DNA from: Phycisphaeraceae bacterium
GTDB taxonomy: Bacteria > Planctomycetota > Phycisphaerae > Phycisphaerales > SM1A02
Length of the DNA: 64,000 nucleotides
NCBI GenBank assembly: GCA_019636755.1
Contig: JAHBWZ010000003.1
Location: forward strand, 434,001 to 498,000
Direction of reading: 5' to 3'
Part shown: positions 53,805 to 63,417 of the stretch, piece after piece
Numbering within the stretch: position 1 is the stretch's first letter
Layout of the letters: each line of letters starts with the position of its first letter
Notes under the pieces: model-generated
What the model was told of the DNA's origin: nothing
Seen by the model: only the letters and a program-made list of their open reading frames with translations
Databases searched by the model: none
Program-made: the position numbers and the translations under genes

Positions 53805-54007
53805 GCGAGCCTCCCTGGGCCATCGCACGGCACTCCACGGCACGGACACGCCTGTGGGCGGGTCGGCGGCCGGCGCGCGGGAGATTTCGGACCATCAGGT
53901 GGCGAATGCCGGAATTCCTGCCTCCCTCGGCGCCCTTGCGCCGTACATTCATCCCTCGGGACCCCGTGATCCCGAATCGCCACCCACAACCAGGAGACGC
54001 AGGAATC

Positions 54008-55471
54008 ATGAAGACATCGATCGTGCTCGGGGTACTCGGAGCTGCAGGCAGCATCATTCTCTTCGGACAGCTCCAGCCGAGCGCCGATGCCGGAGGCACC
54101 GGAAGCGTCCGAGTCCCGCCCTCGGGATCCGCCATGACTTCGGCGTCCCTCTCGGACGACGAGGCACCGCGCCCCAACGGGCCAGGGATCGGCCCGGATG
54201 TCATCGTCTGGACCATCTCGGGTTTCGAGAACTGGTCGGACGCAACGCACCGCGCGTACTCCGTCGGGACAACCTCCTGCAACCAGGGGGACCAGCCGCT
54301 TTCCTGGAACGGCTCGACCAACCAGCATCCGGTGATCGGCCAGAACATGTTCCGGATCATGCCCCGGAACGGGCACCCCCGGTTCGAACAGATCGGGCAG
54401 TCCTGGCTGAAGCACGGATTCTGTGCGCTCGACCTCAACGACTGCGGTGCGTGCCAGGGAACGGGTTGCGGCTCGCTCGGCGTCGGCTGCTCCGATCCCT
54501 ATACGGCGGCGCGCAACGGAAGCCAGGGCCCTGCGGGCCCCAAGTACCAGGTGAATGCCACCACCGGGTTCTTCCCCTATCCGCCAGCGAACCCGTCCTA
54601 CAGCGGATCGACGGCGCGCCGGCTGCGCGTGCTCCGCAGCGACGTCGAAGAGGCGAGCAATCCCGGCGCCACCTATCTCATCGAGGCGATGTACATCCAT
54701 CCGCAGGACAGCCCGCACATCAATGTCGGCCTCTCCGCGAACAACGTGTCGTTTCGAAGGGTCAACCTGAACTCGACGGGTGCGATCAGCTCGTTCAATG
54801 GATCCACCGAGCGGATGCAGGTTGCCCTCATCGCGTGGGTCGCGGAGGACAGCGCGAACATCTCGGCGACACGCATCAACATCGCCGGCGAAGGCACGGT
54901 GTGGCTGGGGCACGCCGCATGGGACAATGGCGACGGTACCTGGGACTACGAGTACGTCGTCAACAATCTCAACTTCGACCGCTCGGTCGGCGCCTTCGAG
55001 GTGCCGGTCCCGGATGGCGTGGTCATCTCGAACGTCGGCTTCCACCAGGTGGAGTACCACTCGGGCGAGGTCTGGAGCAACGCGCCGTGGACGTCGTCCG
55101 TCGGCGGCGGCGCGGTCCGCTGGGAGACCGAGTCCTACGGTTCGAATCCGAACGCCAGCGCGATCCGCTGGGCCACGGCATATACGTTCCGCTTCACCGC
55201 GAACACCCCGCCGCAGAATGCGAGTCTCAAGGTCGAGTACTTCAAGCCGGGTGCGATCATGAGCAACACGCGCATGGGCCGGAGTCCCTCCGCGCCGCCC
55301 GTGCCCTGTCCGGCGGACGTCGATGGAAGCGGCACCGTGGACTTCAACGATGCACTCCTGATCCTGGCCTCGTGGGGCAACTGCCCCGGCTGCCCGGAAG
55401 ACATCGACGGGAGCGGCACCGTGGACTTCACCGATGTCCTCGAGGTGCTGGCCGCGTGGGGCGACTGCTGA
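54008..55471 (+). CDS. Exported dockerin-tailed protein, paralogue A
   Basis: The 487-residue protein has a signal peptide (SIVLGVLGAAGSIILFG) and a large domain of unknown fold. Notable are a Cys-rich block CALDLNDCGACQGTGCGSLG, then GCSDPYTAARNGSQGP near 145-180, and the block GFFPYPPANPSYSG. A second part resembles a beta-sandwich near 300-430 with GTWDYEYVV. It ends in two dockerin-like modules (DVDGSGTVDFNDALL and DIDGSGTVDFTDVLE). It is clearly homologous over its length to the protein at 57953. A GC-rich terminator follows. Function unknown. Confidence 0.85.
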   Translation: MKTSIVLGVLGAAGSIILFGQLQPSADAGGTGSVRVPPSGSAMTSASLSDDEAPRPNGPGIGPDVIVWTISGFENWSDATHRAYSVGTTSCNQGDQPLSWNGSTNQHPVIGQNMFRIMPRNGHPRFEQIGQSWLKHGFCALDLNDCGACQGTGCGSLGVGCSDPYTAARNGSQGPAGPKYQVNATTGFFPYPPANPSYSGSTARRLRVLRSDVEEASNPGATYLIEAMYIHPQDSPHINVGLSANNVSFRRVNLNSTGAISSFNGSTERMQVALIAWVAEDSANISATRINIAGEGTVWLGHAAWDNGDGTWDYEYVVNNLNFDRSVGAFEVPVPDGVVISNVGFHQVEYHSGEVWSNAPWTSSVGGGAVRWETESYGSNPNASAIRWATAYTFRFTANTPPQNASLKVEYFKPGAIMSNTRMGRSPSAPPVPCPADVDGSGTVDFNDALLILASWGNCPGCPEDIDGSGTVDFTDVLEVLAAWGDC

Positions 55472-55609: not shown

Positions 55610-57751
55610 ATGCGCTTCCCGCTGATACCAGTCCTCGTGCTGACGCTCGTGCCGGCAGGTCGCGCGCCCGGCACGGCGTCGCTCGACGAAAGGCCGCCGG
55701 ATCCGGTCGTTCGCGAAATCATCGACGACCTGCTTCGACAGCCCCATGGCGCGGCGACGGTGGCGGATCTCGGCATCCCGCAGGATGTCCTCGCGCGAAC
55801 CGCGCGACGGATCCTCCGCGAATCGTTTCACCGGCAGGTGCACGTCGTCGTCCGGACGGAGCAGGATCCGCCCGCCCCCGTCGGCGAACCCCCGATCAAC
55901 GCGCTCGCATCCGAACGTGATCTCGCGCAGCTTCGAATCGTCCCGGTTTCTCCGGTACCGGCGGCCGCGGCGCTCTGGCCGGACGCCGCGGAGTGGCGCG
56001 CGCCTTCTGCCGGATTCCGCGTGTCCGGAGACGACGCCGCCCTGTCTCTCCCCGATCCGACGCACCCGCTGCGACAGTTCGTCGCCCGCCGCCTTGCGCC
56101 GGACGGACTCGCCCGGACGCTCGCGCTCGTGATCGCGGACCTGGCGGCGCAGGGTGAATTGCCTGCCGATGCGGCGGCGCTGGACCGCGTCCTCAGCGCC
56201 TGCGGCCTGCCGATCGATCTCCTGCCGCTTCTCCGGGCAGCGGACGGCTCGCCCCTGATCTCCGCGCTGCGCTCGGTGCTCGACCGCGCCGATCCCCGCG
56301 CCGAGATGATCCGGTGCGCAGCGGGCGCGACCGTCGACTGGGGGCCGCCGCAGCCCGGGCTCCGTCCGGTGTTCGACGACGGATCCGACCCGATCCGGCT
56401 GGTTCACCTGACGCTGACGCGCGGAACGGACTGGTCGGGACCGGGCGACGGCGGGAGCGTCGACCTGCTCCGGGACATGCTGGAGGCTCTTCCGGAGTGT
56501 GCCTTTGCCATCTCGACGCACGAACGGTTTCTACCCAGCATCGGACTCCTGGCAGCGCAGGAGCCAGCGTTCCGGCGCCCGATCTACCTGCCCGCCGTCG
56601 AGCCGGTCTCGCAGTGGACGCGCGACGCCGGCATCCCGGCGCTTCTCGACGAAGCGGAGCGGCCGGTGCCCGCCCTCCTGCTCCCGCGATTCGCCTCGCG
56701 GCAGGACGATGGATCCGTTGTCGTCCCCGGTGACGCACTCGCGGCCCTCGGTCTGGACCGCATCGGGATCCGGATGGTCCCGACGAGGCTGCTGTTCCAG
56801 GGGGGGAATCTCCTGGTCGCGCGGCACCCCGCGGACGGTCAGCGCCTGCTGCTGCTCGGCGAAGCCGAGATCGCACGGAACATCGCGCTCGGCCTGCGCC
56901 GGGACGAGATCATCCGCGGATTCGCGCGGGAGTTCGGTGTCGACCGCGTCGTCCCGGTTGCCGGCCCCTCGTTCCATCTTGACTTCGATCTGTCCGTCCG
57001 TCGGGCACCGGGCGGCTCGCAGGCATGGGTGCTCGATCCCGCAGGCGGCGCCGCGATCGTCATCGCGGCGGCACTCGGCGCCCTCGAGCGCGCCGGGCTG
57101 CTGATGGATGGCGAACGGCGCCTGGCGGTCCAGGCCCTTCTGGACAGGGACGACGCCGCGCTCGGGTCCGTCCTGGGGCCCGCACTCTACGGCCAGGCGC
57201 TTCCCGGCGGGGGATTCCCGCTGACGCTCGCGCTTCACCTCGCCGCCGGGCCCGGGGACAGCGGGGTCGGCAACCTGCAGCGCCTCCTCGCCGCCGTCGA
57301 CGTCTTCCACGCCCTCCACGGCGCCGAACCGGTACCCGGGTCGCTCGCGCCGGTCCGGGCCGCAACGCTGAACGCCATCCGGATCGCCGCGCAGGAACTT
57401 GATCAGCTTGCGCACACGCTCGCGCGCGAGGGGTTTCAGGTCTTCCGGCTTCCCGGGATCTCCGAGGGCACGCGCAGCCTGGTCCCCGTCAACGCGCTTC
57501 ATGCGCCCGATGCGGTCTATTTCCCGTCCGCCGATGGCCTTCTGTCGCCGCTGGATGCCGCGGCCGCCGAGTCGTTCCGGCGCGCCCTGGGCGACGCGGT
57601 CACCCGGCGCGGAATCCGCGCCTCGGAGAGCCTTCGACGGTCCGGAGGCCTGCACTGCTCTGCGATCTCCTGGCCGGTCACGCCCGAATGGCGACTGGCG
57701 GGGGCGATCGGGCCAGCGTCCGCAAACCTCGCGGCCCCGGACGATTTTTGA
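55610..57751 (+). CDS. Large exported pentein-fold (agmatine/peptidylarginine deiminase-like) enzyme
   Basis: The 713-residue protein has a short N-terminal signal-like segment (FPLIPVLVLTLVPAG). Its C-terminal 450 residues show the guanidine-modifying pentein signature: WTRDAG at 336-341, QGGN at 397-400, HLDFD at 456-460 (catalytic His456 and Asp458) and a C-terminal GGLHCS with the nucleophile Cys683. These match agmatine and peptidylarginine deiminases. The first 250 residues and part of 470-670 are extra compared with the roughly 350-370-residue agmatine deiminases. It would act on arginine-like groups, probably outside the cytoplasm. It lies between two paralogous exported proteins. Confidence 0.78.
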   Translation: MRFPLIPVLVLTLVPAGRAPGTASLDERPPDPVVREIIDDLLRQPHGAATVADLGIPQDVLARTARRILRESFHRQVHVVVRTEQDPPAPVGEPPINALASERDLAQLRIVPVSPVPAAAALWPDAAEWRAPSAGFRVSGDDAALSLPDPTHPLRQFVARRLAPDGLARTLALVIADLAAQGELPADAAALDRVLSACGLPIDLLPLLRAADGSPLISALRSVLDRADPRAEMIRCAAGATVDWGPPQPGLRPVFDDGSDPIRLVHLTLTRGTDWSGPGDGGSVDLLRDMLEALPECAFAISTHERFLPSIGLLAAQEPAFRRPIYLPAVEPVSQWTRDAGIPALLDEAERPVPALLLPRFASRQDDGSVVVPGDALAALGLDRIGIRMVPTRLLFQGGNLLVARHPADGQRLLLLGEAEIARNIALGLRRDEIIRGFAREFGVDRVVPVAGPSFHLDFDLSVRRAPGGSQAWVLDPAGGAAIVIAAALGALERAGLLMDGERRLAVQALLDRDDAALGSVLGPALYGQALPGGGFPLTLALHLAAGPGDSGVGNLQRLLAAVDVFHALHGAEPVPGSLAPVRAATLNAIRIAAQELDQLAHTLAREGFQVFRLPGISEGTRSLVPVNALHAPDAVYFPSADGLLSPLDAAAAESFRRALGDAVTRRGIRASESLRRSGGLHCSAISWPVTPEWRLAGAIGPASANLAAPDDF

Positions 57752-57952: not shown

Positions 57953-59401
57953 ATGCACGGAAAAGTCATTCTCGGAGCGCTCGGCGTCTCGGGCGCCATC
58001 ATCGCCATCGGCCAGCTGAGCCTTTCGAACGCGTCGTCGCGCGACCTCGGCACGGGGCCCGCCCCGTCGCCGTTCGGCGCCGCCGCCGGCCGGGCCGATG
58101 TCCAGCCCGTCGGCAACCAGCCCGATGTCATCATCTGGACGATCTCCGGGACCGTCACCTACACCGACGGCACCTATCGCGCCTACGGCTTCGGCACGAC
58201 CTCGTGCAACGAGGGCAACGCGCCGCTCGCGTGGAACGGCAGCACCAACCAGCATCCGGTCATCGGCCTCAATCTCTTCCGGCTCGCGCCAGGCCAGAAC
58301 GGACACGCTCGATTCGAGCAGCTCGGACAGGGCTGGCTGAAGCACGGCTTCTGCGCCCTCGACCAGAACACCTGCGGTACCTGCCAGGGAACCGGGTGCA
58401 GTTCCCTGGGAATCGGGTGCTCCGACCCGTACACCGCGTCGCGGAACGCCAGCCAGGGTCCTGCCGGCCCGAAGTATCAGGTGAACGCCACCACCGGTTT
58501 CTTTCCCTACCCGCCTGCCAACCCGAGCTACAGCGGGAATACCGCGCGTCGACTCCGGGCACTGATCAGCGAGGTCCGCAACGACCTGAATCCCGGCGCG
58601 ACCTGGTGGGCGGAGGCGCAGTACATCCACTTCCAGGACAGCCCGCACATCAATCTCGCCCTGGCGAACAACAACGTCTCCTATCGCCAGACGCTCATGG
58701 ACAACTCCGGCGTACCGACACTGTTCGGCTCGACGATCCGGCGCGAGCCGGCCATCAACCGCTGGAAGGTCGTTGATCCCCAGGTGACGCTCACCAACGT
58801 GGACGTTCCCGACGAAGGGCGCATCGTGGTCGCCTCCCGCGCCTACGACAACGGCGACGGCACGTGGGACTACGAATACGCGGTCTACAACATGAACCTC
58901 GACCGTGCCATCGGCTCGGTGACCGTGCCGACGGTCGATGGATCGACCTCCTCCGCGCTCGGCTTCCGGCTTGTCGAGTTCCACTCCGGCGAGCTCTGGA
59001 CGAACGGGTCCTGGACCAGCAATGTCGCACCGACGTCGGTTTCGTGGGCGACGCCGCAGACCTACGCCCAGAACCAGAACACCAGCGCCATCCGCTGGGG
59101 AAGCATGTTCAACTACCGGTTCACGTCGGACGCCGCGCCGATCAACAGCACCGTGTCGCTCGGTGTGTTCAAGCCGGGCTCACCGACCAGCCTGGCGGCG
59201 GCCGCCGTCGTGCCGGGCACGCTTCCGAAGCCGACCTGCCCGGAGGACCTCGACGGCAACGGGACTGTCGACTTCAACGACGTGCTTCAGCTCCTGGCCG
59301 CGTGGGGCCCGTGCCCCGGCTGCGTGGAGGACATCGACGGCAGCGGCACCGTGGACTTCAACGATCTGCTCGCCCTCCTGGCCGCGTGGGGCGACTGCTG
59401 A
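57953..59401 (+). CDS. Exported dockerin-tailed protein, paralogue B
   Basis: The 482-residue protein has a signal peptide (VILGALGVSGAIIAIGQL) and is homologous along its length to the protein at 54008. It shares NGSTNQHPVIG, the Cys block CALDQNTCGTCQGTGCSSLG, then GCSDPYTASRNASQGP, YQVNATTGFFPYPPANPSYS, and DNGDGTWDYEY. It ends in two dockerin-like modules with LLAAWGDC at the terminus. An intrinsic terminator follows. The pair flanks the pentein gene. Function unknown; an extracellular structural or polymer-binding role is inference. Confidence 0.85.
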   Translation: MHGKVILGALGVSGAIIAIGQLSLSNASSRDLGTGPAPSPFGAAAGRADVQPVGNQPDVIIWTISGTVTYTDGTYRAYGFGTTSCNEGNAPLAWNGSTNQHPVIGLNLFRLAPGQNGHARFEQLGQGWLKHGFCALDQNTCGTCQGTGCSSLGIGCSDPYTASRNASQGPAGPKYQVNATTGFFPYPPANPSYSGNTARRLRALISEVRNDLNPGATWWAEAQYIHFQDSPHINLALANNNVSYRQTLMDNSGVPTLFGSTIRREPAINRWKVVDPQVTLTNVDVPDEGRIVVASRAYDNGDGTWDYEYAVYNMNLDRAIGSVTVPTVDGSTSSALGFRLVEFHSGELWTNGSWTSNVAPTSVSWATPQTYAQNQNTSAIRWGSMFNYRFTSDAAPINSTVSLGVFKPGSPTSLAAAAVVPGTLPKPTCPEDLDGNGTVDFNDVLQLLAAWGPCPGCVEDIDGSGTVDFNDLLALLAAWGDC

Positions 59402-60690: not shown

Positions 60691-61309
60691 GCGCAGGGGA
60701 CTCCCTGATCGAGTCGGCACGCGTCGATCTGAAGGCGGCAGGACGTCCGCCCCGGCCTGGAGAGTCCCCGACGGGCGACGGGGGATCCGGCCCCGCCGCA
60801 CCGGGCATGCAGATTTCCGGGTACAGGAGCCACGGGCCCTCGTCGCGGTCCGTCCCTCTCGGTTCGATCCCGGTCCGCCCCACGAACTTCGATCCCTCCC
60901 GCGGGATCTCGGCAACACCCTCTTTACACACCGGGATCCGGTGGTATCCTCAATGGTTGCAGGGTGAGATCTGCGGTGGCCTGAGGACAGCCCCCAAGGC
61001 GCGGCGGCGAGGACGATCAGGTTCCTCCCGTCCACCGAGCCCGTGCAGGGCGGGGTTCCACGGCGACCGACACTGAGAGAGAGAGCGCCGCGGCTTCGAG
61101 ACGGGCCGCGACGGTTCGAACGTGCGCCACCCGGATTCGGGCGCCGCATGGGTTCAGGTTGCGCTTTTGCAGGCCGCGGCGGGGTGTTCCCGATTCCGGC
61201 ACTGCTCTCGCAGATTCGTCCACCGGTGGGTCCGGGGTTTCAGGACCCTCCACGGACGATCAGGACAGACTCTCTCTCGTGTTTCGCAGGAAAGGAAGGT
61301 CAGAACACC
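60691..61309 (+). other. Long untranslated interval before the PEP-CTERM gene
   Basis: No supported gene is seen in 619 bases. It contains a good two-box promoter at 60923-60950, which would leave a 5' leader of roughly 350 bases, a GAGAGAGAG run near 61075-61084, and a 14-base segment (61239-61252) also found before paralogue B. Confidence 0.55.
60923..60950 (+). promoter_or_regulatory. Sigma-70-type promoter TTTACA-16 bp-TATCCT
   Basis: TTTACA (60923-60928) and TATCCT (60945-60950) are spaced by 16 bases in an unusually AT-rich patch. It points towards the PEP-CTERM gene at 61310. Confidence 0.5.
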
Positions 61310-61906
61310 ATGGTCAAGACTCTGATGGTTTCGGCTGCCGCGGTCACCTGCCTGGGCGCGGCGGCGCTCGCGGCGAATGAGTGGAATCCGGCTCTCGACA
61401 AGCCGTTCCAGCTCGGGACGTTCCAGCTCACCGGCGGCACGGCCGGGCCCGCCAACTTCTTCAGCTTCTTCTACACGGCCCAGGGCAACGAAGTCGGTTT
61501 CTCGTTCTCCGGCATCTACTCGGAGTCGAGCGCCGGGTCGTGGGCGTCCGACACGCGGCTGGAGATCTTCCGCAACGGCAACCTCCACCACATGATCGGC
61601 GGATTCAGCAACCCCGGCGCTCCGTGGGACTTCCAGGGCGGCGGCTCCGATCTCCCCGGCGCCTACGCACACGGCGTCGGTGGGTCCGCGCCCAATGGCA
61701 ACAACCAGCCCGACTGGTCCCTCAAGGGCGCCGGCACGACCGGTGACGTCTGGGAGTTCCGGTTCTCCAACGGCTGGAACAGCGCCAGCGCCGGGACGCT
61801 CACCTGGACCGAGGCCATGCTCACGATCCACAAGGTCCCGGCCCCCGGCGCTCTCGCGCTGATCGGCCTCGCCGGCCTTGCCGGTGGTCGCCGTCGCCGC
61901 GCGTGA
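61310..61906 (+). CDS. Secreted PEP-CTERM-type sorted protein
   Basis: The 198-residue protein has a signal peptide (TLMVSAAAVTCLGAAALAAN). The mature domain, rich in Gly, Phe, Ser and Asn, resembles a beta-sandwich adhesin or P-domain-like fold (FFSFFYTAQGNEVGFSFSG, then VWEFRFSNGWNSASAGTLTW). The C-terminus has VPAPGA, a hydrophobic helix and an Arg cluster, the tripartite PEP-CTERM exosortase signal. The ATG is preceded by a GGAAGG site. No exosortase is in the window. It is probably anchored or secreted on the cell surface. Confidence 0.87.
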   Translation: MVKTLMVSAAAVTCLGAAALAANEWNPALDKPFQLGTFQLTGGTAGPANFFSFFYTAQGNEVGFSFSGIYSESSAGSWASDTRLEIFRNGNLHHMIGGFSNPGAPWDFQGGGSDLPGAYAHGVGGSAPNGNNQPDWSLKGAGTTGDVWEFRFSNGWNSASAGTLTWTEAMLTIHKVPAPGALALIGLAGLAGGRRRRA

Positions 61907-61970: not shown

Positions 61971-61989
61971 CCCAGCCGCGGTGCACCGG

Positions 61990-61995
61990 TATCAT
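61990..61995 (+). promoter_or_regulatory. -10-like hexamer TATCAT before the TPR gene
   Basis: TATCAT ends 6 bases before the GTG at 62002, directly after the terminator of the previous gene. It helps decide the start codon. Confidence 0.5.
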
Positions 61996-62001
61996 CGCAT
62001 C

Positions 62002-63417
62002 GTGCCGGCGGCACTTCGCATTCTCCTGGTCAGCATCGCCGCGATCGGCCTGGCCATCTGGGGCGTCAGCACGCTTTCCGGCCCGGACATCCCGAGGCCG
62101 CCGGAGATCGACCGGCTCGATCCGATGGTCCGTCAGGCGGTCGACCGGGCCGTCCTTCGCGTCCGGAACGAGCCCCGCTCATCGGCGGCCTGGACCTCGC
62201 TCGGGTCGGTCTTCTACGCGAATGAAATGCAGAGCACCGGGGCGGCGTGCTTCGAGCGTGCCCTCGTGCATGACCCGGATGACTGCGTCGCGCTCTATCT
62301 CCTCGGACGACACGAGGTCATGAACGGTGACGGAGCCCGCGCGATCCCGCGTTTCCGCCGGATCCTGGACCTGCGCCCGAACCACACGATCACTCTCTGG
62401 CATCTCACCGAGGCGCTTCTGGACCACGGCAACGCCGCGGAGGCGCACGCGCGACTGCAGAAGGCGTTCGACGCCGATCCCGCGAACACGGCGATCGCCA
62501 TCGCCCTCGCCCGCGCCGAGACGGCGCTCGGGCGCACGGATGAGGCCATCGCTCTGCTGCGACCGATCGCCGCCTCGCCGGGGATCGCACGCGGCGTGGC
62601 ATCCCGCTTCCTCGGACAGGCCTATCGATACGCCGGTGAGGCGGAAGCAGCTCGGTCGGCGGAAGCCTCCGCACTTCCGGAGACTCCGTGGCCGGACCCG
62701 TGGTACCGCGACATGCAGGCGCACCGGACCGGATTCGCGGCACTGCGGCTCGCCGCGGAACACGCGGTCCGCACGCGTGACTGGGCCTCGGCGGAACGGG
62801 CGCTGGACGTGCTCCTCAGCCGGACGCCCGATGACGCATCGCTCCTGAACATGCGCGGCGTCGCGCACTTCGAACTGGGACAGGGCGAACAGGCCATCGC
62901 GGTCCTTCGCCGCGCCGTCGAACTCGCCCCGGCTCAGAGCGAGACCAGGCTGAATCTCTCCCGCGTCCTGGAACAGCACGACGGCCGTGATCCGACGCAT
63001 CTGGCTGAAGCGGAGCGTGTTCTCGCGCCGCTCCTCGTGGACGGCGCGACCCTGCCGGAAGCGCTGTTCCGGCTTGCCTCGGTCCAGCAGGCGGCCGGGC
63101 GCCTCGACGATGCGATCGCGACCACCCGGCGCCTGCACGCACTCGGCGTCAGACCGGTCGACGCGTCTCTCCTGAAGGCCGCCCTCGAGCACGACGCGGG
63201 GCGACCCGGGGACGCCCTTGCCACACTGGTCTCGTTGACGGAAGCCGTTCCGACGGATCCGCGCGGATTCGCCGCGCTCGCGCTCGCCGCCGCCCGCGCC
63301 GGCGATCGCCCGCGGGCACTTGCCTCGGTCGATCGCGCCCAGGCGCTGCACCTTCCGGATGTTGCCGGACTGCGCGCAGAAGTGCTGTCGCTCCTCGAGA
63401 GGTCGCCGCCGCGATGA
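62002..63417 (+). CDS. Membrane-anchored TPR-repeat protein
   Basis: The 471-residue protein has an N-terminal signal anchor (LRILLVSIAAIGLAIWGVS) and then TPR repeats from about residue 50 to 455, such as AAWTSLGSVFYANEMQSTGA, then ALYLLGRHEVMNGDGARAI and LLNMRGVAHFELGQGEQAI. The GTG at 62002 is chosen because the -10-like hexamer lies just upstream; an earlier in-frame GTG at 61981 would overlap that hexamer. Its stop overlaps the start of the FG-GAP lipoprotein by ATGA, so the two probably work together on the cell surface. Confidence 0.82.
   Translation: MPAALRILLVSIAAIGLAIWGVSTLSGPDIPRPPEIDRLDPMVRQAVDRAVLRVRNEPRSSAAWTSLGSVFYANEMQSTGAACFERALVHDPDDCVALYLLGRHEVMNGDGARAIPRFRRILDLRPNHTITLWHLTEALLDHGNAAEAHARLQKAFDADPANTAIAIALARAETALGRTDEAIALLRPIAASPGIARGVASRFLGQAYRYAGEAEAARSAEASALPETPWPDPWYRDMQAHRTGFAALRLAAEHAVRTRDWASAERALDVLLSRTPDDASLLNMRGVAHFELGQGEQAIAVLRRAVELAPAQSETRLNLSRVLEQHDGRDPTHLAEAERVLAPLLVDGATLPEALFRLASVQQAAGRLDDAIATTRRLHALGVRPVDASLLKAALEHDAGRPGDALATLVSLTEAVPTDPRGFAALALAAARAGDRPRALASVDRAQALHLPDVAGLRAEVLSLLERSPPR

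Follow-up and report, generated by a model that had tools for sequence, protein, structure and literature searches.

The window, a stretch of 64,000 nucleotides from a Phycisphaeraceae bacterium, holds a gene for a long protein that is flanked on each side by one member of a second family, the two flanking genes being paralogues. We refer to the central gene as PENT and to the flanking genes as DOCK1 and DOCK2, labels coined in this analysis. The features discussed below are as follows.

53906..55471, + strand: DOCK1, a predicted secreted beta-sandwich protein with a dockerin/EF-hand-like tail, upstream of PENT; 521 amino acids from the first ATG at 53906, with a true start that may lie later
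54512..54514, + strand: candidate target arginine of DOCK1 (CGC), core residue 106, residue 203 counted from 53906
55610..57751, + strand: PENT, predicted exported long pentein of 713 amino acids (ATG start, relatives, model)
55610..55681, + strand: N-terminal hydrophobic segment, residues 1 to 24, likely a signal peptide or anchor (hydrophobicity scan; pLDDT below 50 for residues 1 to 23)
55679..55858, + strand: separable helical N-module, about residues 24 to 83; a membrane-anchored gene of its own in 16 of 47 copies
56072..56329, + strand: helical subdomain, about residues 155 to 240, within the enzyme gene whether the N-module is split off or fused (alignment A4, model)
56339..57685, + strand: pentein catalytic domain, about residues 244 to 692 (model, VIA-align, profile-profile alignment)
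56624..56626, + strand: codon of D339, equivalent of PPAD D130, guanidine binding (role from PMC4487231)
56975..56983, + strand: codons of H456 to D458, equivalents of PPAD H236 and D238 (alignments)
57038..57427, + strand: helical insertion in the pentein, about residues 477 to 606 (model, profile-profile alignment)
57491..57493, + strand: codon of N628, positional equivalent of PPAD N297, 55 residues ahead of the Cys
57656..57658, + strand: codon of C683, predicted nucleophile, equivalent of PPAD C351 (alignments)
57953..59401, + strand: DOCK2, downstream paralogue of DOCK1, 482 amino acids
58442..58444, + strand: candidate target arginine of DOCK2 (CGG), residue 164

A first-pass annotation had read the central gene as a pentein-fold enzyme of unusual length. 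The reading frame and its motifs are real, with W336-T-R-D339, Q397-G-G-N400, H456-L-D458 and C683 where that annotation had placed them, and the 344 residues between D339 and C683 agree with its description of catalytic signatures spread over about 350 residues. At 713 residues, the protein is indeed about twice the length of AgDI. An AlphaFold2 model built from 31 sequences (mean pLDDT 89.2, pTM 0.90) resembles PPAD and AgDI at Z scores of 26 to 27. In VIA-align, PPAD was the top structural match (Z 27.4 over 299 residues, 3.1 A), alongside 1zbr (Z 27.0), the AgDI of E. faecalis (Z 26.4, with AgDIs generally at about 26 to 27) and human PAD4 (Z 23.9); the AstB dihydrolase was a weaker match to the fold (Foldseek E 0.004). 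Judged by this model, PENT is a pentein.

The catalytic set is complete and survives proper alignment. W336, D339, R360, Q397, G398, G399, R423, N424, H456, D458, N628, G679 and C683 are identical in all 37 rows of alignment A3 (the window copy and 36 relatives) and all 31 rows of alignment A4 (the window copy and 30 sequences, many of which share genomes with A3). The window copy reads WTRDAG where most members read WAQDNG. Asp, His-x-Asp, Asn and Cys follow one another in the order of Pfam family PF04371 and align to the PPAD-like set. According to PMC4487231, D130, H236, D238, N297 and C351 do the chemistry in PPAD, the Asn at 297 is invariant among citrullinating enzymes, and internal arginines are blocked by Tyr233, in whose place PAD4 has Ser. 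The corresponding PENT residue, 453 if one counts back from H456, is Tyr in 0/37 and 0/31 rows; it is mostly Val, the full range being V, A, S, I, P, N, T or L. R360 (37/37) and R364 (36/37) fall near the PPAD segment that contains the carboxylate-binding arginines R152 and R154 (YNRPR) but out of register in the profile-profile alignment; the two arginine pairs do not map exactly onto each other.

A helical insertion had also been proposed; it exists, at about residues 477 to 606 in the model and the profile-profile alignment instead of 490 to 650. It widens the pentein domain and is shortened in one branch of the family (L005/L006). The window protein ends 30 residues past C683, and its relatives in A4 likewise end within a few dozen residues. 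PPAD has C-terminal Ig-like and T9SS sorting domains, for which PENT leaves no room.

Taken as a whole, the layout is unlike that of agmatine deiminase, arginine deiminase, PPAD or animal PAD, as had been claimed, but its catalytic part can be recognised as distantly related to PF04371. Alone, the window protein matched nothing in Pfam, including PF04371 itself (PAD_porph), or in NCBIfam, and only two PDB sequences at E 1.8 and 2.7; these three collections were also searched for a long family whose substrate had been assigned, and none was found. Its relatives reach further: 17 of 31 PENT members matched PF04371 at E of 0.001 or less (best 1.1e-12), and relaxing the threshold to E 10 raised the count to 26. 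When eight members were scanned singly, one exceeded the gathering score of 25 and the other seven scored 16.6 to 24.6, with most matches confined to the C-terminal portion of the profile. A profile-profile comparison against 12 planctomycete PPAD-type proteins, one of which matches PPAD itself at E 2.9e-24, gave 98.3 percent probability and E 1.9e-14 with all motifs aligned. By these sequence comparisons, PENT is a long branch distantly related to PF04371 that has no family name in Pfam or NCBIfam. An ordinary planctomycete PPAD homologue (L007:1009-2742, - strand; E 2.9e-24 to PPAD) has, by eye, a dockerin-like tail.

With PPAD, PENT thus shares its fold, its D/H/D/N/C set, probable export and the highest structural score; it differs in falling mostly under the Pfam gathering score, in the missing Tyr233 equivalent, and in having a helical insert, N-terminal parts and an adjoining secreted candidate substrate. 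Human PAD4 is also a deiminase pentein, and internal-arginine substrates are a PAD4 feature, but the N-terminal parts of PAD4 are Ig-like whereas those of PENT are helical in the model, and none of 31 PENT members has animal-type PAD Pfam domains. AgDIs have the fold and the catalytic positions in common with PENT; their solved chains are about 330 to 370 residues and their substrate is free agmatine (PMC4487231), whereas PENT is about twice as long and probably exported.

The homologue search uncovered a long PENT branch in Planctomycetota in which the catalytic residues are conserved, and the window protein is itself a long branch within it (highest identity, 36 percent). Among 101 genomes (100 relatives and its own), seven had a match, one of which (G095) is an ordinary PPAD-like protein. 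A six-row profile gave matches at E 0.001 in 75 of 397 class genomes and 31 of 392 phylum genomes, many of them ordinary PPAD-like penteins matched over a short C-terminal stretch; full-length members occur in both samples, counts to which the caveat of MAG incompleteness applies. Scanning genome contigs with the 37-row alignment A3 returned 29 loci, all titled Planctomycetota, planctomycete or Phycisphaera-type bacteria, of which 20 were dropped as duplicates of loci already in the set; these 29 came through one pattern, so members that do not have it would have been missed. A scan of genome contigs with the window protein alone found no relative. PENT was met only in Planctomycetota, in searches that covered its own phylum and one wider scan of genome contigs.

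The 250-residue N-terminal extension, described at first as one large unmatched domain, has no Pfam match, and the pentein starts at about residues 244 to 250; the extension itself resolves into two separate pieces, a helical module of about 60 residues and a helical subdomain. In 47 distinct PENT copies, the N-module was split off in 16, fused in 27, absent as far as we could find in one and truncated in three, and the split or fused label changed six times on the tree by parsimony, two changes being forced by supported branches. At the ten junctions that we read, the first 100 or so profile positions are encoded by a gene of their own, and its stop codon overlaps a start codon for the enzyme gene (ATGA at eight junctions, GTGA at two). 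For loci with N-module and enzyme in different frames, a programmed frameshift was considered and set aside: the stop and start overlap, and the second gene begins with its own hydrophobic stretch in most cases, which favors two coupled genes. Every separate N-module gene scanned encodes a hydrophobic C-terminal helix and, after it, basic residues, and 34 of the 47 distinct copies of PENT have a hydrophobic N-segment (13-residue mean of at least 1.5). Export with tethering to the membrane is the best reading of these sequence features. When 47 genomes were searched, the N-module was present in 31, all among the 33 that have PENT, and in none of the 14 with DOCK but no PENT; the match in G332 is short and lies at a contig edge (E 0.003). 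Its confinement to PENT genomes marks the module as a dedicated partner of the enzyme; in the window protein the two are fused.

DOCK is a multi-copy family of secreted planctomycete proteins. Its tail matches Dockerin_1 and NCBIfam dockerin_GC below their cut-offs and, in DOCK2, EF-hand_1 just above cut-off. Pfam searches with 18 DOCK cores gave single scattered matches only (best E 0.011) and no family for the core. The core (window:54197-55213) is predicted to fold as beta-sandwiches (pLDDT 84); Foldseek returned nothing at E of 0.001 or less, and PDB sequences gave no match. The best solved match was the catalytic domain of LOXL2 (VIA Z 9.9 over 152 residues), a weak beta-sandwich resemblance in the model that we treat as a lead only. 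HxHxH, the copper motif of lysyl oxidase type, is absent from the DOCK alignment.

The two families are linked. A DOCK gene lies within 1 kb of 29 of the 47 PENT copies, against 0.23 expected under random placement that ignores shared ancestry. The 31 DOCK neighbors so counted are on the same strand as PENT in 30 cases (23 downstream, 7 upstream) and on the opposite strand, upstream, in one. A script found no DOCK within 1 kb of the other 18 copies, three of which are near contig ends; one of these three (L131) has a partial DOCK frame that the script missed because the frame overlaps, and it is not among the 29. All 33 PENT genomes have DOCK. In the class sample DOCK was found in 127 of 397 genomes, a few cases being marginal, and all 26 genomes of that sample with full-length PENT have it (hypergeometric 2e-14, ignoring kinship). 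The linkage extends over distant families.

DOCK cores were then compared for basic residues specific to association with PENT, and the comparison singled out core position 106, in the motif C-S-D-P-Y-x-x-x-R-N-G. All 32 DOCKs at PENT loci have arginine there (29 of them at most 600 bases away and three farther off in the same cluster, L087 counting as far only because its N-module gene intervenes), and 13 of 14 from PENT-negative genomes have leucine. After 120 more cores had been added, PENT loci stood at 32/32 and PENT-negative genomes at 0/74 (72 Leu, 2 Gln), while nonadjacent copies in PENT genomes were divided, with Arg in 29 of 60 and another residue in 31. Column 106 was the best separator (distance 1.0; next column, 0.71). 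C98, D100, Y102, N107 and G108 are near-invariant in both kinds of DOCK. On a tree inferred from 166 cores with the motif stretch removed, the Arg/non-Arg state changed 18 times by parsimony, eight changes being forced by supported branches. A weaker difference is seen at core position 116, which is Lys in 48 of 61 Arg106 cores and Arg in 80 of 105 others.

Once the idea had been fixed, 66 further PENT-negative cores from the phylum and class samples (leaving out L319, which is PENT-positive, and L327, a duplicate of L170) included no Arg at 106 (60 Leu, 3 Thr, 3 Ile). Nine further PENT genomes each had at least one Arg106 DOCK; five of these (G800-G804) had already contributed an adjacent DOCK to the 32, and therefore only G796-G799 are fresh. 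Arg106 was found in all four. No DOCK adjoins PENT in three of them (G796, G797 and G798), nor in G348 and G618, which also have Arg106 copies. The only PENT genome in which the copies read included no Arg106 DOCK is G253 (L097, L289-L308), for whose PENT we did not find an N-module. In total, an Arg106 DOCK is present in 41 of the 42 PENT genomes, and Arg106 occurs in 0 of 140 PENT-negative copies (132 Leu), the 140 being a subset of the DOCK copies in their 97 genomes. PENT-negative status was assigned in all 97 with the six-row profile, scoring the two best candidates per genome, and in 80 also with the broader A3 model, scoring up to 14 candidates; the latter gave no full-length match and partial matches in eight genomes, seven of them in the last 100 or so model positions. 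The same pattern holds in all seven families that include both kinds of genome (hypergeometric product 1e-18, ignoring kinship within families). Independent pairs have low power here: in about 5.5 of 15 pairs Arg106 goes with adjacency and in none against it (median p 0.06); for PENT in the genome, only one or two of seven pairs are informative, and these follow, again with none in opposition (p 0.5).

Arg106 thus occurs in DOCK only where PENT is present among the genomes read, a pattern that points to a dedicated bacterial enzyme-substrate pair. We propose, with a probability of roughly 0.6, that PENT is a membrane-tethered enzyme of the peptidylarginine deiminase type that targets Arg106 of DOCK. 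In this mechanism D339 and D458 would hold the guanidine of Arg106 while C683, assisted by H456 and N628, attacks its carbon, and hydrolysis would leave neutral citrulline at DOCK 106 outside the cytoplasmic membrane. Lineages that have no PENT would encode a neutral residue, mostly leucine, at that position directly. The N-module, with a transmembrane helix of its own in about one-third of copies and fused in the window, may tether the enzyme or present the substrate. It seems somewhat more probable than its opposite that Planctomycetota have such a dedicated system of self-directed citrullination, made up of a tethered pentein and a genomically paired secreted substrate whose single switchable arginine is mostly Leu where the enzyme is absent.

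The correlation and the linkage are silent on reaction type, and other pentein chemistries would produce the same pattern at position 106. PENT might convert Arg106 to ornithine as a dihydrolase, transfer its amidino group, or only bind it as a chaperone or assembly factor. AstB does share the fold, at a weaker score, but the closest folds are deiminases and a mere binder would not need the invariant deiminase catalytic set, so we regard these variants as unlikely. Less likely again is a scavenging deiminase that works outside the cell membrane on free agmatine, on arginine or on peptides, with DOCK as an unrelated, coexpressed neighbor. The AgDI fold match nearly equals that of PPAD, and the conserved R360 and R364 could bind a free carboxylate; this explanation, however, accounts neither for linkage across distant families nor for the way in which position 106 tracks PENT, with no exception in the 140 copies read from PENT-negative genomes.

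A third explanation separates Arg106 from catalysis altogether: the residue could mark old DOCK lineages inherited together with PENT. PENT-linked DOCKs do cluster on the tree, and the independent pairs lend little support. Against this stand the 18 changes of state, eight of them forced, the lack of a second column that separates the two sets, and the near-invariant neighbors of position 106, and we consider this explanation improbable.

To our knowledge, protein citrullination in bacteria is known mainly from PPAD and bacterial PAD homologues. PMC4487231 and PMC8826395 cover PPAD, studied for its action on host proteins, and PAD homologues in, for example, cyanobacteria. Literature searches found nothing on peptidylarginine deiminase in planctomycetes or on a GC-type dockerin, and for PF04371 only a Porphyromonas paper; among the matches listed, none concerned protein citrullination in planctomycetes (judged by title and start of abstract) or a pair of the PENT-DOCK type. 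The deiminase reading offers a function hypothesis for a secreted planctomycete family whose core has no Pfam family, and because the sequence record names the target residue, the enzyme-substrate pair is directly testable by coexpression and mass spectrometry.

Other arrangements of PENT were also seen. In two genomes (L105:2632-6444 and L106:5898-9977), a 4Fe-4S (Fer4_5/Fer4_7) membrane protein with TPR repeats precedes PENT in a single fused protein. A paralogue clade (L079, L090, L093 and L094) has no adjacent DOCK and has in common a different, exported-looking neighbor, possibly another substrate or partner; its L093 copy (L093:6639-8339) shows weak TPR matches. In the window itself, the protein encoded at 61043-61906, near a TPR protein at 61981-63417, ends in what we take to be a PEP-CTERM-like motif.
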